NCBI GenBank assembly: GCA_023433985.1
Contig: JAEYTN010000406.1
Span: 1-18,178, forward strand
Length of the DNA: 18,178 nt
Direction of reading: 5' to 3'
Source of the DNA: Pseudomonadota bacterium
GTDB lineage: Bacteria > Pseudomonadota > Alphaproteobacteria > Rhizobiales > Devosiaceae
Shown: positions 977 to 16,513 of the stretch, in pieces
How positions within the stretch are numbered: the first letter of the stretch is position 1
Layout: each line of letters begins with the position of its first letter
Translations under genes and position numbers: made by a program
Notes under the pieces: generated by a model
What the model was told of the DNA's origin: nothing
The model's database searches: none
What the model saw: the letters and a program-made list of their open reading frames with translations, nothing else

Positions 977-1785
977 GCAGAAGCATCGCTGCCCCCCAGG
1001 ACCGTACCATCGGCGACCACATCCGCGAATGGCGGCAGCATCGGCGCATCAGCCAGCTGGCGTTGGCGCTTGAGCTCGAGCTCAGCCAGAAGCACCTGAG
1101 CTTCATCGAATCGGGCCGCTCCATCCCCAGCCGCGAGGTGGTGCTGCGGATCGCATCGGGCCTCGACGTGCCGCTGCGCATCCGCAACCTGATGTTGCTC
1201 GCGGCCGGATACGCGCCGCGCTACCTGGAGCGCCCGCTCGATCACCCGGATCTCGCGGCAGCACGCGACGCCGTCGAACTGGTGCTGAGAAGCTACGAGC
1301 CGTTCCCCGCCATCGCCATCGACCGCGGCTGGAACCTGGTGGCGGCCAATGGCGCCACGCAGATGCTGTTCAACATCGTGCAGGACCCCGCACTGCTCGA
1401 GCCGCCGGTTAACGTCCTTCGGGGCAGCCTGCACCCGCGCGGCCTGGCGCCGCTGATCGAGAACTACGACGAGTGGTCGCGCAACATCCTGAAGCGCCTC
1501 GACGCCGAACTTGAGGCAACCGGCGACGCCGACCTCCGCGAGTTGATCGCCGAACTGGAGGCGCTTACGGGGCTCACGGCGCCGCGCGATGGTCGCGAGG
1601 ACTTTGCCGGCGTCTTCGTGCCGCTGAAGCTTCGGCTGCCCGCCGGCACGGCGACGTTCATCTCCACCACCACCGTGTTCGGCACGCCGACCGAGGTGAC
1701 CCTCTCCGAACTCGCCATCGAGGCCTTCCTTCCCGCCGACGCCGCAACGTCGGAAATGCTGCGGGCGCAGGCGGGTGCGGCTTAG
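973..1785 (+). CDS. XRE-family transcriptional regulator with MmyB-type C-terminal domain
   Basis: This 270-residue cytosolic protein has an N-terminal helix-turn-helix at about residues 15-68: a QLALALELELSQKHLSFIE recognition region followed by the SGRSIPS turn typical of Cro/C1-type HTH. Residues ~105-265 match the layout of the MmyB-like ligand-binding domain, including the DRGWNLVAAN stretch after the linker, the NVLRGSLHPRGLAP region and a C-terminal FGTPTEVTLSELAIE region. Regulators of this family usually repress or activate an adjacent or divergent gene, here probably the membrane protein gene at 467-859. The ATG at 973 is the only start before an in-frame TAG at 961. Its stop codon overlaps the stop of the convergent ATP-grasp gene. 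The ligand cannot be told from sequence. Confidence 0.85.
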   Translation: MSRSIAAPQDRTIGDHIREWRQHRRISQLALALELELSQKHLSFIESGRSIPSREVVLRIASGLDVPLRIRNLMLLAAGYAPRYLERPLDHPDLAAARDAVELVLRSYEPFPAIAIDRGWNLVAANGATQMLFNIVQDPALLEPPVNVLRGSLHPRGLAPLIENYDEWSRNILKRLDAELEATGDADLRELIAELEALTGLTAPRDGREDFAGVFVPLKLRLPAGTATFISTTTVFGTPTEVTLSELAIEAFLPADAATSEMLRAQAGAA

Positions 1786-2774
1786 CGCACTTGCGCCGGC
1801 GTTGCCTCGCCGGCTCCCACCGGAGAGGAACTTGGCTGAACCTCATCGAGCCAGCGGTGCAGCGCAGCCGCATAAAGCCTGCGCCAACCGCGCTGCGGCG
1901 TGCTGAGGAACCACGATTTTCTCAGGTCCCAGCTGGCATTGCGGAGCTCGGCGAGCCGGTTCACCACCGATTTTCCCGATTGCGGATAGACGGTGAGTTC
2001 CGAGAAATAGATCTCGCCGTCGAGGCTGTAGAGATCGACCCTGATATGGTCGAACGGCTGGCCCAGCTTCTCGGCAGCGTCGCGCATCCGTGTGAAGGTA
2101 TCCGGCAGCGGCAATGCCGCCCACGTCGTCCATCGGGGGTCCGCCGGCAGCGGTGAGCCGTTGCGTTCGTAGACGCACCAGTTGTCGGTGCCATCCGCGT
2201 TGCGGCGCTTGACGTAGATGTAGCAGGTGCGCCCGGCGCTGGTGTGGAACTTGTATTCGGTGGCGACGGGACGACCGTCCGGTTCCTGAAGCATTGCCTC
2301 GACAAGGATGCATTTGCGGGCGTTCCGATAGCCCCACTCGCCTACGAACCGGGCATATGTCCGTCGAACCCAGCCGGACGCGCGGCGCAACATCTGCTTC
2401 CGGTCGAACTGGCCGTCGCGCACCAGGATGTTCCATCCGGAGCCGTGATTGGCTTTGATCGCCACATTGCCCGCCAGCAGCTCGGCTGGAATCTGTTCGG
2501 GGTCGGTGCCCTGCCACAGCACGGCAGCGGTCTTCAAATCGGGCGCATGCTGCCACACATAGTCCTTGGCCGCCAGCTTGTCGCAACACATCGAGAACAT
2601 TGGGTTGTGGTCGAATATCTTCCGCCACAGGAACTTGTCGCCGTCGCTGGCGGGGGCCGCCGGGTTGGGAAAGAAGTCCGTCTTGCCGCGCAGCGAGCGG
2701 CGCCAGACTCCGGGATGGCGCAGCAGGCTCCAGATCCGCACGGTACCCAGCAGCAGCCGGTCGTCGGTTCGCAT
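1782..2774 (-). CDS. TupA-like ATP-grasp protein
   Basis: This 330-residue protein has the signature of the TupA-like ATP-grasp family (named after teichuronopeptide synthesis). It shows a DK-AAK-YV region near residue 65, the ATP-binding KANHGSGWNILV stretch at 107-118, EYKFH at 173-177, and the metal/ATP-binding HIRVDLY...GEIYFSELT segment at 243-261. ATP-grasp enzymes join a carboxylate to an amine or thiol through an acyl phosphate; members near polysaccharide or natural-product genes add amino acids. The frame is open further upstream, but the ATG at 2774 fits the family start. It lies 10 nt after the stop of the NAS-like gene with GAGG between, indicating translational coupling. The substrate is unknown. 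The enzyme probably acts on the product of the upstream SAM enzyme (inference). Confidence 0.8.
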   Translation of the reverse strand: MRTDDRLLLGTVRIWSLLRHPGVWRRSLRGKTDFFPNPAAPASDGDKFLWRKIFDHNPMFSMCCDKLAAKDYVWQHAPDLKTAAVLWQGTDPEQIPAELLAGNVAIKANHGSGWNILVRDGQFDRKQMLRRASGWVRRTYARFVGEWGYRNARKCILVEAMLQEPDGRPVATEYKFHTSAGRTCYIYVKRRNADGTDNWCVYERNGSPLPADPRWTTWAALPLPDTFTRMRDAAEKLGQPFDHIRVDLYSLDGEIYFSELTVYPQSGKSVVNRLAELRNASWDLRKSWFLSTPQRGWRRLYAAALHRWLDEVQPSSSPVGAGEATPAQVR

Positions 2775-2784
2775 GCCTTCAGCC

Positions 2785-3585
2785 TCACGGTCCACCGTCA
2801 GCACCCGGGCGACGACGTCTGGTGAACACGTCTTGCGACAGCCGCACAATGGGCCCGCGGCCGGTGATCTCGAGTTGCGGGATCTGGTCGGGAAAACTGC
2901 TCTCCAGCCAGAGCCGGCCCAGCGATATCGGCTCCCACAGCACGATGCGAACGTCCTCCGGCGCCGTTTCCAGGATGCGCGCAATCACAGCCCGCTTGGG
3001 CGAAACCATGCTCGCGACATAGACGAGGTCGGCCCCGGCGTAGTCGAAACTCGCGCCGTCGCAGAGTTCCGTCCGCATCCGGTCATAGCCAAGCTTTCGG
3101 GCGAGCGCGGCGGCCGAGTCGACGGCATCCGGAACCACGTCGAGGCCGATGATCTCGCGCGCGTCGGTAGTCTCATGCAGATAGAACATGGTGACCGGGC
3201 GCCACCCGCAACCCACCATCACGATGCGCTGCATGCCAGGCTTCGCAACATGCGCGGCCAGGTCGGCCAGGCGGTTCAGCATCCCCATCGCGTTGGGCGT
3301 GGCGAGGGATCGAAACGAGGCGGGCGCCTCAATCTCTGTCTCCAGGAGCTTTCTGGTATCCGCCGTCTCGAGGCGGACGACATAGGCGTTGAACTCGCTC
3401 GACAGCGCAGGCCGAATGCCGAGCAACCCCGGATCGCGCTCCAGCATGCGCTCCGCCTCCGCCGGCCCCATGGCATCGGCGAGGCCGTCAATTGCGCGGA
3501 TCAAGTCGAACGTATCGCGGTCGGCGGGGGAGGACAGGATCGCTGCAAGGGCGGCATGCGAGTCCTGGGAGTCTTCTGCAATCAT
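2785..3585 (-). CDS. nicotianamine-synthase-like SAM-dependent enzyme
   Basis: This 266-residue protein has a helical N-terminal half (residues 1-115) and a Rossmann-type SAM domain (118-255). Three blocks match the nicotianamine synthase pattern rather than ordinary methyltransferases. VGCGWRPVT (124-132) aligns with the family's GSGPLPLT loop. DVVPDA (149-154) aligns with DIDPxA. DLVYVASMVSPK (186-197) aligns with DVVFLAALVGxxK. An upstream SEFNAYVVRLE segment (63-73) recalls the family's NYxxL-xxE region. Such enzymes transfer aminobutyrate groups from SAM to make nicotianamine- or staphylopine-type metal chelators. The ATG at 3585 has AGGTG 7 nt upstream. The gene is coupled to the ATP-grasp gene and lies 200 nt after an EamA exporter gene. 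A divergent class I methyltransferase of other function remains possible. Confidence 0.6.
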   Translation of the reverse strand: MIAEDSQDSHAALAAILSSPADRDTFDLIRAIDGLADAMGPAEAERMLERDPGLLGIRPALSSEFNAYVVRLETADTRKLLETEIEAPASFRSLATPNAMGMLNRLADLAAHVAKPGMQRIVMVGCGWRPVTMFYLHETTDAREIIGLDVVPDAVDSAAALARKLGYDRMRTELCDGASFDYAGADLVYVASMVSPKRAVIARILETAPEDVRIVLWEPISLGRLWLESSFPDQIPQLEITGRGPIVRLSQDVFTRRRRPGADGGP

Positions 3586-3786: not shown

Positions 3787-4731
3787 TCACGCGCGCCGTG
3801 CGCTCCACTCGGCCAGTACGATGCCGGCCGCGACCAGGACGGCGGCGAGAATGTGGAAACCTTGCAACACCTCGCCCAACACGATCACCGACCCGATGGT
3901 GCCGAAGAGCGGGATCAGGTTGACGAACAGGCTAGCGCGGTTGGACCCGATCAACTCGACGCCGCGCACGTAGAACATCTGCGACAGGATCGAGGGGAAA
4001 AGGATCGTGTAGGCGACGATCAGCCAACCCACGGTGTCGATGCTTCCGAGGTTGGTGAAGAACCCCTGAATGCCGGGTCCGACACTCGCCTGGTAGGCAA
4101 CGGCCGCGAAGATGGCGCCGACGAACGTGGCAACCATGAAGCTCAGCCAGTTTGTCTGGGGCCGCCAGCGCAGGGCGATCGAGTACCCTGCGTAAACCAA
4201 GCAGGCGAGGATCACCAACAGGTCGCCGACATTCACCTCGAGCTTGAGTATGCGGAGGAGGTCGCCGTGGGTGGCGATCAGCGCCACCCCGACGATGGTG
4301 ACGGCGACGCCTAGCAGTTGCAGTGGCTGCACCTTCAGCCGGAACAGCACGAAGTTCAGCACGATGACGAAGATGTTGACCGCCACCTGCTCGAGCGAGG
4401 CATTGACGCCCGAGGTGAAGTGGGCGGCGATGTACATCAGCATGTTGAAGCTGGTGAAACCGACGGCACCGTAAAGCAGGTAGAGCCACCAGCGGACCTG
4501 GATCCTGGGCCAATCGCGTTGCAGCGGTCGAATGGCGAAGGGCAGCACCAGGATCAGCGCGCCCAGCCAGCGGAGGATCGTCAGCGCGTAGGGGTCGATG
4601 TGGCCGACCGCCATCTTGCCCGCGACGGTATTGCCGCCCCAGAAGATATTGCAGACCACGAGGATGAGGTAGGGCCGGCTCATCACCGCGTCAAAGGCGC
4701 GGGAAAGCGGCGGAGCGCTGGTATCGGTCAT
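3787..4731 (-). CDS. EamA/DMT-family inner-membrane transporter
   Basis: This 314-residue protein has ten predicted membrane helices in two five-helix EamA repeats. Each repeat has the family pattern: the first opens with NIFWGGNTVAGK near residue 30, the second begins near residue 160 (VGDLLVILACLVYAGYSIALRW), and a GE motif lies in the last third (VIVLGEVLQG). DMT proteins mostly export amino acids, nucleotides or other small metabolites. The start is ambiguous: a TTG at 4737 and an ATG at 4731, both with poor ribosome binding sites; I chose the ATG. It lies between the flavin oxidase genes and the NAS-like/ATP-grasp pair, all on the same strand. In pseudopaline systems a DMT exporter works with an NAS-like enzyme, but this gene may instead be an independent neighbour. 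Confidence 0.85.
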   Translation of the reverse strand: MTDTSAPPLSRAFDAVMSRPYLILVVCNIFWGGNTVAGKMAVGHIDPYALTILRWLGALILVLPFAIRPLQRDWPRIQVRWWLYLLYGAVGFTSFNMLMYIAAHFTSGVNASLEQVAVNIFVIVLNFVLFRLKVQPLQLLGVAVTIVGVALIATHGDLLRILKLEVNVGDLLVILACLVYAGYSIALRWRPQTNWLSFMVATFVGAIFAAVAYQASVGPGIQGFFTNLGSIDTVGWLIVAYTILFPSILSQMFYVRGVELIGSNRASLFVNLIPLFGTIGSVIVLGEVLQGFHILAAVLVAAGIVLAEWSARRA

Positions 4732-4746
4732 CGGCAATAGATGTGA

Positions 4747-4812: not shown

Positions 4813-6195
4813 TCAGGCCGGCGGGATGTTGTGGTTGCGCCGGAACAGGTTGTGCGGGTCGTATTGCCGCTTCACCTGCCTGAGCCGGTTCCAGGTGGCC
4901 TCCGGATAGGCAGCGCGGACACGCTCCGGCCCCTCATCACCGACGAAGTTGACGTAGGCGCCCTTGTCGCCCTGGTTGAGCGCCCGGGCGAAGTCGTCGA
5001 TCCACTGCTGCTGCCTGCTCTTGTCCTCGGCGCCATCGTAGAAGGCCGCGAGGCTGACCATGATGCGGCTGTTGCGGTGCGCATATGCCGTCGCATCGGG
5101 CCCAACGCGGCTTGCTGCACCGCCCATCACCCGTAGCTGAACCACGCGCATGGGAGCGGTGGATTCCTCCAGATAGCCCAGGATGGTCGCGCCTTCCTCG
5201 GGACCGATGTGATCCATGAACATGTTCACCGATACGGCGGTCGGGTGATAGTCCTCGGCACCGGGCATCTCGGGGAACATCGCCTTGTAGTATTCGCCGG
5301 GCTTCACGAAGTCGGCGAGCGGCTTGGCGATGGCTCGGAAGGGGGCGAGTGTGCGCTGCGCGTCCTCGTCGGGACCCAGATAGGCCAGCATGCCCAGGAC
5401 AACGAGCTTGCCCACCATGTCTGGCGGCAAGAACGGCATGGGCGGCGCCGGCATGACATTGGCGATGGTCGAAAGCTCGTCGGGCGCGGCATCCGAGGCT
5501 GCGACGAAGCCGGCAACCGTATCTGCCGTCGCAGGCAGGATCAGCAGGCCGCCGGTGAAGTGATCGAGCGGGCTCAGCCGATAGCGGATACGCGTCACCA
5601 CGCCGAAATTGCCGCCGCCGCCACGCAGCGCCCAGAACAGGTCCGGGTGCTGTTCGGCATCGGCAGCAACTACCTTGCCATCGGCAGTCACCAACTCGAA
5701 CGCGAGCACGGAATCTATGGTCAGGCCGAGCTTTCGCGTCAGGTACCCGACGCCACCGCCCAGGGTGATACCGGAGACGCCAACGGTCGCCGCGTCTCCG
5801 AAGCCGACGACCAGCTTGTGGGGAGCGAGCGCCTCGAGCAGTTGCATGGCCGTGACGCCGGCCCCGACCCAGGCGGTCCTGCCGGTCACATCGATGTCGA
5901 TGCGGTCAAGATCACGCACATCGAGCACGAGCCCGCCATTGCTGGTGCTGTGGCCGGCGCTGGAGTGGCCGCCAGAGCGGATGGCCAGTTCGAGGCCGTG
6001 CCCGCGCGCGTGGTTCACCGTGCGCACCACGTCGTCGACGTTGGCGGCACGGACGATGCCGCGGGGCGTCGCGTCGACGCCGCCGTAGACGACCGTACCG
6101 AGTTTCTTGAAGTCACTGTCCGCCGGAGCAACGAACCGGCCGGCGAGACCGGGAGGCACTAGGTTCGCGTCAGCGGAGGGTGAGGTCGTGTTCAT
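4813..6195 (-). CDS. berberine-bridge-type FAD-binding oxidoreductase (copy 1)
   Basis: This 460-residue flavoenzyme has an FAD_binding_4 (PCMH) domain at about residues 40-215 and a C-terminal BBE domain ending in NFVGDEG...YDPHNLFRRNHNIPP. His77 in RSGGHSSAG is the expected covalent FAD attachment site. The second attachment Cys of bicovalent members (CPTVG) is replaced: the motif reads DAATVG, with Ala135 in the Cys position, so a single covalent bond is predicted. Other hallmarks are TLGGGVGYL and DLFWALRGGGGNFGVVT. Such enzymes oxidise alcohols, sugars or alkaloid-like substrates with O2. The ATG at 6195 has AAGGA 7-8 nt upstream. It is a tandem paralogue of the gene at 6342-7715. No Tat or Sec signal was seen, so it is probably cytosolic. 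The substrate is unknown. Confidence 0.9.
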   Translation of the reverse strand: MNTTSPSADANLVPPGLAGRFVAPADSDFKKLGTVVYGGVDATPRGIVRAANVDDVVRTVNHARGHGLELAIRSGGHSSAGHSTSNGGLVLDVRDLDRIDIDVTGRTAWVGAGVTAMQLLEALAPHKLVVGFGDAATVGVSGITLGGGVGYLTRKLGLTIDSVLAFELVTADGKVVAADAEQHPDLFWALRGGGGNFGVVTRIRYRLSPLDHFTGGLLILPATADTVAGFVAASDAAPDELSTIANVMPAPPMPFLPPDMVGKLVVLGMLAYLGPDEDAQRTLAPFRAIAKPLADFVKPGEYYKAMFPEMPGAEDYHPTAVSVNMFMDHIGPEEGATILGYLEESTAPMRVVQLRVMGGAASRVGPDATAYAHRNSRIMVSLAAFYDGAEDKSRQQQWIDDFARALNQGDKGAYVNFVGDEGPERVRAAYPEATWNRLRQVKRQYDPHNLFRRNHNIPPA

Positions 6196-6286
6196 CACAC
6201 TGTCCTTGTCTCTGGTTGGCGCGCTGGGTGGCGGTTACATGGGAGTGACCACCTGCCATTTCCAGATCACCGGCGCGTGAAAAGCG

Positions 6287-6312
6287 CAGCCGGCACCATT
6301 GGGCGCCGGCTG
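6287..6312 (-). terminator. hairpin behind the second oxidase gene
   Basis: CAGCCGGC (6287-6294) and GCCGGCTG (6305-6312) form an 8-bp stem with a 10-nt loop. Read on the minus strand it is followed by CGCTTTT, a weak T-run, 30-55 nt after the stop of the oxidase gene ending at 6342. It may separate the two oxidase genes into different transcripts. The rest of the 146-nt gap shows nothing clear. Confidence 0.45.
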
Positions 6313-6341
6313 GCAGAAGTTTATGGCCTACACACGCATTT

Positions 6342-7715
6342 TCATGCTGCCGGCGGCACGTTATGGTTGAGCCGGAACAGGTTTTCCGGGTCGTAGCGCC
6401 GCTTGATCGCCCGCAGCCGTTCCCACGTCCTCCCCGGGTACGCCGCCTGCCGACGACGGGCGCTGTCGCTGTCGAGGAAGTTGACGTAGCAGCCATCGCT
6501 ACCCGCCAGTGCCTCGATTGCCGCGGTGCCCCAGGCGTCGTGACGCCCCCCGTCTTCACCGCCGCCATGCATGGCGACGTAGGTCACCATGATTGGCGCC
6601 GACCGGTGTGCGAACGCCGTCGCGTCGTTGGAGACGCGGCCTACTGCGCCGCCGAGCACGCGGAACTGGCCGATCTTCATCGGCGCATCGCATGCCTCCA
6701 GCCTGGCCAGCATGTCTCGCGCCTCCGTCACGCCGAACGTCTCGGTGAAGCAGGAGCGCAGCGTCACCTGCGGCCGCATCTCCGGATCCTCGGGGAGATA
6801 CATGCTCGAGTAGGGGGCGGGTCGCACGAGGTCGGCATAGGGCTTGGCCAGGGCGCGGAACGGCGCCAGCGCTTCCTGCGCGCCGTCGGCAGGTCCGGAA
6901 TAGGCCATCATACCGACGAGCACGATACGCCCGTAGAGCTCGGGCGGCAGATACGGCATTGGCGGGCACGGCATCGCCAGCGCAATGGTGGTGAGTTCAT
7001 CCGGCGCTGCCGCTGCCGCGGCGGCAAAGCCGGCCAGCACTTCGGCGGTAGCGGGAAGCACCAGCGGGCCGCCAGTGAACTCAGGCAAGGGGCGCAGTCG
7101 GTACTTCAGGCGCGTGACGACGCCGAAGTTGCCGCCGCCGCCGCGCAGGGCCCAGAACAGGTCAGGGTGACTTTCGGCATCTGCGACGATGATCTCGCCC
7201 GAGGCGGTGACGATCTCTGCCGCCAACAGCGAGTCGATGGTAAGGCCGTCGCGGCGAGCCATGTAGCCGATGCCGCCGCCAAGCGTCAGCCCGCCGATAC
7301 CGACGGTGGCGGAGTCACCAAAGCCGACGATCAGGCCGTGCCGCTCGACAGCGGCGGTGACTTCGCCGGCAGTGAGGCCGGTGCCGCACCACGCGATGCG
7401 GCTAGTGGCGTCGACCTCGATCCCGTTGAGATCGCGCAGGTCGATCAGCAATCCGCCCGTCGTGCCGAAGCTGCCATGACCTCCGGAGCGCACGGCAACC
7501 TCGAGATCGGTCGCCTGCACGAAGTTGAGCACGGCTGCAACGTCGGCAGCATTGGCGACGCGGACGATCGCCGCGGGGCGGTTGTGGGCGTTCGCGATCG
7601 AGCCGAGGCGCAGGGTGTCATAGTCGGGGTGCGTCGGCGTGATCAGCCTGCCGCGAAGGGCCGAGTCGAGCATTTCGATCTGATCTTCCAGGGGAAAGCG
7701 CTTGTCCATTCCCAT
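6342..7715 (-). CDS. berberine-bridge-type FAD-binding oxidoreductase (copy 2)
   Basis: This 457-residue paralogue of the preceding oxidase has the same order of domains and motifs: VRSGGHGSFG with His80 as the covalent FAD site, DSATVGIGGLTLGGG, DLFWALRGGGGNFGVVT, and a BBE end reading YDPENLFRLNHNVPP. The Cys of bicovalent enzymes is Ser135 here. The two proteins are clearly related along their whole length yet diverged, as expected for an old tandem duplication with separated substrates. The frame stays open upstream to 7787. I chose the ATG at 7715; the ATG at 7709 is an alternative, and both have weak ribosome binding sites. It is first of the five minus-strand genes and faces away from purA. 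The substrate is unknown. Confidence 0.9.
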   Translation of the reverse strand: MGMDKRFPLEDQIEMLDSALRGRLITPTHPDYDTLRLGSIANAHNRPAAIVRVANAADVAAVLNFVQATDLEVAVRSGGHGSFGTTGGLLIDLRDLNGIEVDATSRIAWCGTGLTAGEVTAAVERHGLIVGFGDSATVGIGGLTLGGGIGYMARRDGLTIDSLLAAEIVTASGEIIVADAESHPDLFWALRGGGGNFGVVTRLKYRLRPLPEFTGGPLVLPATAEVLAGFAAAAAAAPDELTTIALAMPCPPMPYLPPELYGRIVLVGMMAYSGPADGAQEALAPFRALAKPYADLVRPAPYSSMYLPEDPEMRPQVTLRSCFTETFGVTEARDMLARLEACDAPMKIGQFRVLGGAVGRVSNDATAFAHRSAPIMVTYVAMHGGGEDGGRHDAWGTAAIEALAGSDGCYVNFLDSDSARRRQAAYPGRTWERLRAIKRRYDPENLFRLNHNVPPAA

Positions 7716-7828
7716 AAACTCGCTTTGTGGGGTCAAAAGTGGCGCGTTTTTCGTGCTGGTGCCGTGAACCGCGGCTGAACGCCTCACTCAGAAATGGTGA
7801 ACCGGCGGCCCGACCGGCTTCTGCGGAT

Positions 7829-9292: not shown

Positions 9293-11470
9293 ATGGCGGA
9301 CTACAAAGAGCTGTTACGTAGGGCGGTAGAAGCTCTGCCCGAAAACAACGGCGCCGCGCGACGAGCGGTCTACGAGAAGGCGCGTGCCGCCCTCGTGGGG
9401 CAGCTGCGCGCCATCAATCCCCCGCTTGCCGCCCGCGACATCACTGCTCACCGCCTGCAGCTCGAAGACTGCATCCGGCAAGTCGAGCAGGAGGCCAGCG
9501 AAGCGGTGATCGCCGGGCTCGGCTCCGGCAAGGAAGAGGCGCCGCCCCCGCCGCCGGTCTATTTCGAGCCTCCGGCCAAGAAGGCGCCGGCATCGGTTGC
9601 GCGTCCTGTTGCCAAGCCGATCGCGAGTGCCACCGCGAAGGAGCCGCCACGGCCGTTGCCGCCGGGCGGCAGCATCGAAGAGATCATCGCCGCCGCCAAT
9701 GCCGAGCAGGCAGACCCGGCGCCGGCCGAAAGCAAGCGAAGCGTCGTCCGTTCCGATGGCAAGCCGATAGGCAAGCCGGTGCCGAAGCTGGTGCCCAACA
9801 CCCGTCCGCAGGCGCAGATAGCCGCGCCAGTCCGTAGCGTTGCGCCGCCGGTGTTCGAGGAGCCTGAAGAGCAGGAGGAGTTGCCTGTTCCGCCGCCTGC
9901 CCGCCCCAATGGCAAGACCGGCCGGCCGTTGCCTTCCATTGTCGCCCGTGCCGAGGCTGCCAAGAGCCGAACCGGTTCGGCTGCATTCGGCGCGCCGATC
10001 GGTGGTGCCGTTCGCGGCCCCGAACTGACGCCGCGCCGGGAGCTTGCAGCCCCTGCGCCGCGGCTTGACCCGGCACCGCGCGGTGGCCAGGCCGCGGCGG
10101 CGCGGCAGTTCGCTGCCGAGCCGGTTGCCCTGTTCGATGAGCCGCCCGTGGCCGCGGCCATGTCGGCGGTGCGTGAGGTGGAAGTCGAGCCGCAGCAGGC
10201 TGTCGATCCGCAGGATTCGATCGATCGGGCCATCGCAACCCTTGACCGGGAAGCGCGTGGTGAAACTGACGATGAGCCGGAAATCAACGGCGCATTCCAT
10301 GAGGTGCCCGACCTCGAGGAAGACGAGGAGGCCGAGCCGCCGCGTAAGAACGGCTTCCCCAGCGGTATGTTGCGGGCCGATGCACCAGCGGTGCCGCTCG
10401 AGAACCGTCGCAACGGCAAGCCGGTAAAGCCCTCGGCCTTTGCCAAGAACGCTCGGCAGGTCGGGGCACGGCGTGAGCCGGAGCCGACCTTCCCTCGGGC
10501 GCGCGAAGAGAGCGATCGTCGGGGGCTGGGCGCCGTCACCGTCTTCCTGATCGTGTTCGTCGTTCTGCTGCTGGGCGCGGGTGGCGCTGGGTATTGGGCT
10601 TGGCGCGAGGGCTTTATCAACCTCGACCAGATGTTCGGGCGCGCGGCGCCGGTGGAACAGCAGGCGGCCGCAGCGCCGGCTGCACCCGCTGGCGGTACCG
10701 ACGCGCCTGCCACGGGACCCGGCAACACCGATACTCCCGCTGAAGTGGCGCAGCCCGGGCCTGAACTGGCCGAAGACGACCGCCTGACCAGCGACAGTCC
10801 GGCCGTTGCCGAAACGCCAGCGCTGCCGCTCGCCCCTGCCACGCCTGAGCGGCTCGGTGCCGACACGCCTGCACCCGGCAGTGCAGAGGCTGCGGTTGCG
10901 GCGATCGACCCGGCGAACACCGTCGGTGGTCAGTCGCTATTGCTCGAGGCATCGGACAACGGCAAGACCGGCGCGGTTCCCTTCTCCGGCTCGATCGAAT
11001 GGACCAAGGGCACCGACGAGATGGGCCTGCCGACGCTGATCGGCAAAGCCTCGATACCGGCGCGCAACCTGTCCGTCGACCTGCTGATCCGCAAGAATTC
11101 GGACACTAGCCTGCCGGCCAGTCACCTGATGGAAGTGAACTTCAAGGTGACCGACAGCTTTATCGGCGGCTCCATTGCCGGGCTTCCGGGTGTGCTGCTC
11201 AAGAACGAGGAACTCGTTCAGGGCACCCCGTTGGTCGGGGCCTCGGCCCGAGTTGTCGGAAACTCGTTCCTGTTTGCGCTCAGCGCTTCGCCCGAGGATA
11301 TCAACGCCAACAGCACGTTGCTGACCTCGCGCAAGTACATGGATCTGGCGCTGATCTACGCTACGGGCAAGCGGGCTATCATCACGCTGGAAAAGGATCC
11401 GGCCGCCGTGGCGCTGTTCAGCGAGGTGGTCGGCGCCTGGAACGAGAGCAAGGCTGCGTCGGCGCAGTAG
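9293..11470 (+). CDS. large proline/alanine-rich single-pass membrane protein, function unknown
   Basis: This 725-residue protein has four parts. An N-terminal helical domain (1-75) begins with DYKELLRRAVEAL and carries a conserved-looking ARDITAHRLQLEDC segment. A long low-complexity cytosolic region (76-405) is rich in Pro, Ala, Glu and Arg. One membrane helix spans about 413-435 (VTVFLIVFVVLLLGAGG). A periplasmic part has an Ala/Pro/Thr linker and then a folded-looking domain (527-720). I recall similar unnamed proteins beside purA in Hyphomicrobiales but know no function. The topology (cytosolic N-terminus, one helix, periplasmic C-terminus) suits an envelope scaffold or sensor, which is inference. 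The ATG at 9293 has no good ribosome binding site. It is probably co-transcribed with purA and ends at the terminator at 11494. Confidence 0.85.
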   Translation: MADYKELLRRAVEALPENNGAARRAVYEKARAALVGQLRAINPPLAARDITAHRLQLEDCIRQVEQEASEAVIAGLGSGKEEAPPPPPVYFEPPAKKAPASVARPVAKPIASATAKEPPRPLPPGGSIEEIIAAANAEQADPAPAESKRSVVRSDGKPIGKPVPKLVPNTRPQAQIAAPVRSVAPPVFEEPEEQEELPVPPPARPNGKTGRPLPSIVARAEAAKSRTGSAAFGAPIGGAVRGPELTPRRELAAPAPRLDPAPRGGQAAAARQFAAEPVALFDEPPVAAAMSAVREVEVEPQQAVDPQDSIDRAIATLDREARGETDDEPEINGAFHEVPDLEEDEEAEPPRKNGFPSGMLRADAPAVPLENRRNGKPVKPSAFAKNARQVGARREPEPTFPRAREESDRRGLGAVTVFLIVFVVLLLGAGGAGYWAWREGFINLDQMFGRAAPVEQQAAAAPAAPAGGTDAPATGPGNTDTPAEVAQPGPELAEDDRLTSDSPAVAETPALPLAPATPERLGADTPAPGSAEAAVAAIDPANTVGGQSLLLEASDNGKTGAVPFSGSIEWTKGTDEMGLPTLIGKASIPARNLSVDLLIRKNSDTSLPASHLMEVNFKVTDSFIGGSIAGLPGVLLKNEELVQGTPLVGASARVVGNSFLFALSASPEDINANSTLLTSRKYMDLALIYATGKRAIITLEKDPAAVALFSEVVGAWNESKAASAQ

Positions 11471-15611: not shown

Positions 15612-15673
15612 GACGGCGAAATTCTGCCACGGTGGGAGGCTTGGATGCGGCGCTTAAGATATTGGGGCGGCAA

Positions 15674-16513
15674 GTGAAAGTTCTATTGGCGGCGCTGGCG
15701 TTGAGCCTCGCCGGGGTATCGGCCAGCCAGGCCGAAGTGGTCTGTACGCTGGTGGTCGACGCCGAGAGCGGCGGGGTGCTGCTGCAGGAAGGGGGCGGCT
15801 GTGCGCGGCCCGCTGCGCCGGCTTCGACGTTCAAGGTGCCGCTGGCGCTTATGGGGTTCGATGCGGGGATACTGACGGCCGCGGACGCGCCGGCCTGGCC
15901 CTACCGGAAGGAGTATGGCGGCACGCGGCCCGAGGAGAAGGTGACGCTGACGCCGGCGGGGTGGCTGAGGGACTCGGTGCTCTGGTACTCGCGACAGGTG
16001 GTGCAGCGGCTCGGGGCGGCGCGCTTTGCTGGCTATGTAGCTGATTTCCAATATGGAAATGCCGACGTGTCGGGTGATGCCCGCAAGGATAACGGGATGA
16101 CGCGGAGCTGGCTCAACTCATCGCTGCAGGTCAGCCCGGAGGAGCAGGTGGCGTTCCTGAGGCGGATGCTGGCGGGGGAACTGCCGGTGTCGGCGGCCGC
16201 TCGGGACGCGGTGGTGGGGATCATGCCGCGGTTCTCGGCCGGGCCGTGGGAGCTGGCGGGGAAGACCGGGACCTACTACGAGCGGAATGCCGACGGCAGC
16301 TACAACTCAAGGAAGCAGTGGGGCTGGTTCGTGGGCTGGGCCGAGCGGGACGGGGAGCGGCTTGTGTTCGCCTACCTGATCCGGGACCCCAAGAAAACGG
16401 CCGGGGCGGCGGGGCCGCGGGCGCGGGATGCGCTGCTGGCACGGTTCGCGAAATGGGGCGATGGGCAGATTGCCGGCCGGAGCGGCGCGTTCATCGACAT
16501 GAACGCCAGCTGA
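15674..16513 (+). CDS. class D (OXA-type) beta-lactamase family protein
   Basis: This 279-residue penicillin-recognising serine hydrolase is predicted to be exported: residues 1-20 are a signal peptide with cleavage near SQA/EV. Motifs in order are Ser51-T-F-K54 (nucleophile and the lysine that is carboxylated in this class), S101-V-L103 (usually S-x-V), Y127-G-N129, a W146-L-x-S-S-L block matching the class D Trp that supports the carboxylated lysine, and K197-T-G199. The length fits OXA enzymes. The start is uncertain: GTG 15674 gives a clean signal peptide behind GGGGCGG, while GTG 15632 adds 14 residues. It lies 62 nt after thiN and could share its transcript. Whether it confers resistance cannot be told; a class D-like protein without strong hydrolysis is possible. 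Confidence 0.85.
   Translation: MKVLLAALALSLAGVSASQAEVVCTLVVDAESGGVLLQEGGGCARPAAPASTFKVPLALMGFDAGILTAADAPAWPYRKEYGGTRPEEKVTLTPAGWLRDSVLWYSRQVVQRLGAARFAGYVADFQYGNADVSGDARKDNGMTRSWLNSSLQVSPEEQVAFLRRMLAGELPVSAAARDAVVGIMPRFSAGPWELAGKTGTYYERNADGSYNSRKQWGWFVGWAERDGERLVFAYLIRDPKKTAGAAGPRARDALLARFAKWGDGQIAGRSGAFIDMNAS

Follow-up and report, generated by a model that had tools for sequence, protein, structure and literature searches.

Introduction

The locus reported here carries a gene like those of nicotianamine synthases (NAS). In the Methanothermobacter enzyme MtNAS, Glu81 and Tyr107 are described as deprotonating the acceptor amine (PMC10491745), and Arabidopsis NAS1 is killed by E77Q and by Y106F (PMC10248798). 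In staphylopine synthesis, the D-histidine aminobutyrate transferase CntL (PDB 7C9M) has as its partners the opine dehydrogenase CntM and transporters; zincophore clusters carry both exporters and importers, and the 2020 mapping paper states that its own approach finds CntM-dependent systems only (PMC7438024). Because searches for NAS-type metallophores have taken the opine dehydrogenase as their anchor in this way, they would overlook any NAS-like enzyme that has a different partner.

Two further systems are relevant. In the capsule of Campylobacter, the C6 carboxylate of glucuronic acid is converted to amides by the TupA-like domain of Cj1438, and this amidation of a capsule sugar acid was the only TupA-type activity found in the literature searched (PMC11800379). 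The azetidine-2-carboxylate (AZE) synthases are described as sparse, accessory enzymes of the class I methyltransferase fold, for which lateral transfer is suspected and whose neighbours include ATP-grasp, DMT transporter and acetyltransferase genes (PMC11794875). In the literature searched, which was mostly open access and covered as titles, abstracts and passages, no pair of a NAS-like and an ATP-grasp gene was found, although a 2009 survey of amidoligases may describe one.

A NAS-like gene adjoining an ATP-grasp gene

The window, that is, the whole 18,178-nucleotide stretch analysed from an alphaproteobacterial contig, carries a NAS-like gene (gene 1) followed by a gene for a TupA-like ATP-grasp ligase (gene 2) (Table 1). 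The original prediction placed the two genes 10 nt apart with a ribosome-binding region at the junction; the coordinates are exact (spacer 2775-2784), and a GAGG tetramer lies at the gene 1 stop and may be a ribosome site for gene 2, judging from its sequence. The longest open reading frame of gene 2 begins further upstream, at a TTG at 2984. The EamA-family gene is a possible exporter gene and is absent from the Mesorhizobium cassette described below, whilst the two BBE-type oxidoreductases are 52% identical across 450 residues. Elsewhere in the window, a 293-aa protein (15632-16513, plus strand) has a penicillin-binding transpeptidase domain and matches a class D beta-lactamase in size, and a 725-aa reading frame (9293-11470, plus strand), which follows the adenylosuccinate synthetase gene, has no Pfam match at E 1e-5.

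Table 1. Positions of the gene pair, its neighbours and selected sites in the window
Feature	Position	Strand	Remarks
Helix-turn-helix gene	973-1785	plus	Tail to tail with gene 2, 4-nt overlap
TupA-like ATP-grasp ligase gene (gene 2)	1782-2774	minus	330 aa from ATG at 2774
GAGG tetramer, ribosome-site-like	2783-2786	minus	Overlaps gene 1 TGA stop; 8 nt before gene 2 ATG
NAS-like gene (gene 1)	2785-3585	minus	266 aa, ATG start
SAM-binding loop VGCGWRPVT (residues 124-132)	3190-3216	minus	G125, G127, P130 invariant in 28/28 and 27/27 rows of two alignments
Glu73, proposed counterpart of MtNAS catalytic Glu81	3367-3369	minus	Sequence alignment by eye
EamA-family transporter gene	3787-4737	minus	PF00892, 1.6e-33; 201 nt upstream of pair, same strand
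Two tandem BBE-type FAD oxidoreductases	4813-7787	minus	Upstream of EamA gene; not in Mesorhizobium cassette

The NAS-like protein

The likeness of gene 1 to NAS is clearest in its predicted structure. The AF2 model (pLDDT 93.1) adopts the NAS fold over its full length, with an N-terminal helical domain (approximately residues 1-113) followed by a Rossmann domain, and MtNAS and CntL head the match lists of both Foldseek and VIA-align; the absence of a structure from such a list was not counted as evidence. An unrelated methyltransferase family was therefore not the best fold match, and the proposed NAS likeness stands at the level of fold. A check by Pfam search and structural comparison together gave a divided answer: the structural part came out in favour, whilst PF03059, the NAS model with a cut-off of 27.1 bits, failed to match the window protein even when the threshold was relaxed from E <= 1 to E 5. 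Nor did PF03059 match at E <= 0.001 in any of nine Mesorhizobium-group genomes, all of which carry the NAS-like gene.

The first protein-database search with the gene 1 protein returned 29 proteins at E <= 0.001, itself included. The three motifs said to align with NAS were found exactly where predicted, namely the SAM-binding loop, DVVPDA (149-154) and DLVYVASMV (186-194), and G125, G127, P130, D149, A154, A191, V194 and K197 are invariant in the 28-row alignment of the family. The window protein scores 12 bits against the CntL equivalog model, the cut-off of which is 350 bits, and matches to this model in 25 of 28 relatives are weak and far below the family cut-off. General methyltransferase models score at least as well as the NAS and CntL models, and a profile-profile match to NAS (hhalign) covers the Rossmann part alone. 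The support that sequence lends to a NAS identity is thus weak.

These results bear on a different reading, in which gene 1 encodes a methyltransferase of NAS-type architecture that methylates a small amine or carboxylate, the ATP-grasp enzyme then making an N-methylated peptide or amide. Generic methyltransferase Pfam models match 26 of the 28 rows at E <= 5, as against four for the NAS model, and the likeliest counterpart of MtNAS Tyr107 is not kept in the window protein. However, the protein shares its N-terminal helical domain and its whole-length fold with NAS and CntL, the best methyltransferase lying approximately 4 Z units below CntL, and the acidic residue at position 73 has been kept; a methylating role is considered rather unlikely.

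The assignment of catalytic positions should be considered with caution. Position 73 is acidic in all rows of a 27-row alignment (E in 24, D in three). Position 103, picked by eye as the likeliest column for MtNAS Tyr107 (Tyr106 of Arabidopsis NAS1) and at about the same distance from the glycine loop, holds Leu in the window protein; the 27 rows have Y in 20, F in five and L in two. Each residue was paired by eye with its MtNAS counterpart. In the HMM alignment the Glu73/Glu81 region is shifted by one, and hhalign, restricted to the Rossmann part, puts the Tyr107 counterpart at a position other than 103; the chemistry of gene 1 is therefore inferred from its fold.

The TupA-like ligase

The TupA-type identity claimed for gene 2 held up in both comparisons. 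The protein matches PF14305 (TupA-like ATP-grasp) at 1.9e-11 and 44.4 bits, above the cut-off of 25, and its AF2 model (pLDDT 92.9) has a predicted ATP-grasp fold that matches D-Ala-D-Ala ligase, LysX, RimK and carbamoyl-phosphate synthetase. K107, E159, R245, D247 and E259, which we take to be nucleotide- and metal-binding residues, are invariant in all 38 rows of the family alignment. For these 38 sequences NCBIfam gave no match at E <= 0.001, and the PDB sequences gave nothing useful.

In view of the activity of Cj1438, the two enzymes might serve to decorate a polysaccharide of the cell surface: gene 1 would supply an uncommon amino acid, with which the ligase would amidate a sugar acid, much as the Campylobacter domain forms amides at C6 of glucuronic acid (PMC11800379). 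This seems quite unlikely, as no glycosyltransferase or polysaccharide gene was found in the cassette or amongst the 15 window proteins scanned.

Recurrence of the pair

A scan of genome contigs with the single gene 1 protein found no relative, whereas a profile scan found 10 loci, nine from the Mesorhizobium group and one from Undibacterium. A TupA-like gene, 49-54% identical to gene 2, directly follows the NAS-like gene in nine of the ten, and the expected recurrence of NAS-like/ATP-grasp pairs in other genomes was thus borne out by the neighbourhood survey. The NAS-like gene occurs in 10 of 146 Mesorhizobium genomes, and in each of these carriers the two genes lie side by side on the same strand, which is beyond chance. 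The TupA model matches in 54 of the 146 genomes, with 594.8-665 bits in the 10 carriers only and at best 256.4 bits outside them; as the model was built from the carriers' own copies, high scores are to be expected there, and the result lies in the absence of intermediate copies. TupA paralogues are also present away from the NAS-like gene. When contigs were paired by equal length, which is an indirect match, nine of the 49 NAS-like proteins fell on the contig of a TupA hit among those listed.

Beyond the Mesorhizobium loci the NAS-like family is rare. It was found as three full or near-full and 10 partial matches in 397 genomes of the order, as one match and two partial ones in 300 genomes of the Undibacterium order, in one of 43 genomes of the genus Undibacterium, and as four matches in 398 genomes of the phylum, two being known Mesorhizobium copies and two partial. 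Plasmids gave no match with four queries.

A two-gene cassette in Mesorhizobium

The Mesorhizobium cassette is limited to this gene pair and contains neither an exporter nor an importer. Comparison of filled and empty loci (four filled loci, five blastn comparisons) gave the same borders, between which 1900-1930 bp replaces 88-104 bp. The neighbouring glutamine-synthetase-like gene is present in 31 of 31 sampled genomes; across 30 loci, the pair precedes this gene in four, and a HAD gene lies directly beside it in 24 of the other 26, not being found in the remaining two. As the synthetase gene is universal in the sample and adjoins the HAD gene in nearly all loci without the pair, the downstream glutamine-synthetase-like and FAD oxidase genes were rejected as members of the pathway.

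Presence of the pair changes eight times by parsimony on a FastTree phylogeny of the flanking gene, a tree built without support tests from a sample enriched in positives, nine of the ten being included; of 39 loci, 35 remained as tips once three duplicates and one short copy had been removed. In one genome (G146, L037:8796-10507) gene 1 has an in-frame stop and gene 2 a frameshift near its end. The base composition of the pair is like that of its neighbours (0.61 and 0.60 versus 0.62 at L002, a Mesorhizobium-group locus). The two genes are gained and lost together, and they seem to decay together. From the cassette borders, the changes on the tree and the decay in G146 it follows that the two genes move together without the need of any other conserved neighbour. 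The pair is very probably a functional unit. The recurrent two-gene unit, the folds and the conserved residues are what computation has established.

Relatives with other neighbours

In Undibacterium fentianense (L010:7980-11577), a gene for a 626-aa ATP-grasp protein lies 126 nt downstream of the NAS-like gene on the same strand, and a PhyH-type dioxygenase gene comes next on the opposite strand. The arrangement resembles that in the window, but the ligase belongs to a family other than the TupA type, its best NCBIfam match being cyanophycin synthetase (8.3e-90, 302 bits, the cut-off being 877). A second NAS match in this genome (L030) was dropped as a CheR-type methyltransferase by eye.

A more distant relative, which passes the PF03059 cut-off, was found in genome G369 of the order (L028:8017-11833), where a NAS-family gene, a gene for a 278-aa protein and a gene for the ovothiol enzyme OvoA follow one another with end-to-end overlaps of 4 nt each; both NCBIfam cut-offs are passed by the OvoA gene. 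From gene content, this operon may produce a thiol-histidine that carries an aminobutyrate group. The 278-aa protein is ATP-grasp-like by eye, with 20 aligned columns against TupA, but has no Pfam match at E 10 and no useful PDB match, and it was not counted as an ATP-grasp enzyme.

Two other loci were noted. A NAS-like gene with plant-like LMEKHW and DNY motifs (G083, L029:6523-7332) adjoins an acetyltransferase-like gene, in surroundings that look mobile by eye, with resolvase-like and integrase-like genes. A 339-aa NAS/CntL-like protein (G762, L035:7445-8464; NF033601, 1.8e-8) is encoded beside genes for small membrane proteins.

The metallophore question

The lack of an opine dehydrogenase nearby, noted in the original prediction, was upheld by the absence of any match to the family amongst the 15 window proteins scanned against Pfam, and none was found in the 10 proteins around L002. 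The staphylopine dehydrogenase family was found in none of 12 genomes, in a search in which no positive control gave a match. The ATP-grasp ligase may take the place of the dehydrogenase, as had been suggested.

A secreted metallophore, with the EamA protein as its exporter, would agree with the service of pseudopaline by the EamA/DMT exporter PaCntI (PMC5719457), with the frequency of such exporters in zincophore clusters (PMC7438024) and with the position of the EamA gene upstream of the pair on the same strand. However, the Mesorhizobium cassette is without a transporter, and no receptor or ABC importer lies beside the pair in the 10-protein neighbourhood of L002. As zincophore clusters have exporters and importers and this cassette has neither, a metallophore system of this kind is held to be unlikely.

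Discussion

The NAS-like enzyme most likely moves the 3-amino-3-carboxypropyl (aminobutyrate) group of SAM onto a small amine-bearing acceptor, which is probably an amino acid, with release of methylthioadenosine. The TupA-like ligase most likely uses ATP to turn a carboxylate into an acyl phosphate and couples this to an amine, and the end product would be an amidated or peptide-linked aminobutyrate compound. We infer which group is transferred and to what acceptor, in what order the enzymes act, and what the product is and does. Taken as a whole, the statement that the pair combines aminocarboxypropyl transfer with ATP-dependent amide formation is given an even chance of being right; that the pair makes a hitherto undescribed small molecule is probable.

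Gene 1 might instead cyclise SAM to azetidine-2-carboxylate (or homoserine lactone), a product that the ATP-grasp enzyme would ligate into a dipeptide or amide. The genomic setting of the AZE synthases is strikingly similar, and the window too has an EamA/DMT gene upstream. Against this, the signatures FY (looked for within residues 1-40), PFNxxGN and RxxYYxxC given for AZE synthases (PMC11794875) were found in none of 45 family members, and the fold matches are NAS and CntL. Cyclisation of the known AzeJ type was rejected with these signatures absent, whilst cyclisation in general, as by another cyclase that lacks these motifs, is kept as a very unlikely rival to aminocarboxypropyl transfer.

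There is a tentative and somewhat doubtful case for a wider, unrecognised biosynthetic logic, in which NAS-type and ATP-grasp enzymes together would bring the aminobutyrate of SAM into amides or small peptides, the ligase being swapped between lineages (TupA here, the cyanophycin-synthetase type in Undibacterium) and the divergent branch in the OvoA operon perhaps serving a thiol-histidine. The Mesorhizobium cassette is the minimal, two-gene case. At a single site, some close sister genomes carry it and others lack it; nature thus already provides the comparison needed to find the metabolite, which makes other roles of NAS-type enzymes a directly testable question.

Amongst known systems, MtNAS (PDB 3FPE/3FPJ) shares with the gene 1 protein the whole-length fold, the order of domains, the glycine loop, the D-x-x-x-x-A block and the VAxxxxPK block, but identity in the structural alignment is 17-18%, and the window protein differs in having Leu at the likeliest counterpart of Tyr107 and an ATP-grasp gene directly downstream. 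CntL differs in its company: the conserved partner of the gene 1 family is an ATP-grasp ligase in place of CntM, and no transporter is conserved. The C-terminal domain of Cj1438 belongs to the same family as gene 2 (PF14305) and has a known amide-forming activity, but it acts on a capsule sugar acid (PMC11800379), whereas the partner of gene 2 is a NAS-like gene and no glycan gene is near. The AZE synthases AzeJ and VioH have in common with the gene 1 family a SAM-cleaving class I fold, patchy accessory genes and ATP-grasp neighbours, and differ from it in that their motifs are missing in 45 of 45 members of the family, and in the N-terminal domain, which is of the NAS type in the family. As described (PMC11794875), the AZE synthases with ATP-grasp neighbours are the nearest precedent for the pair.
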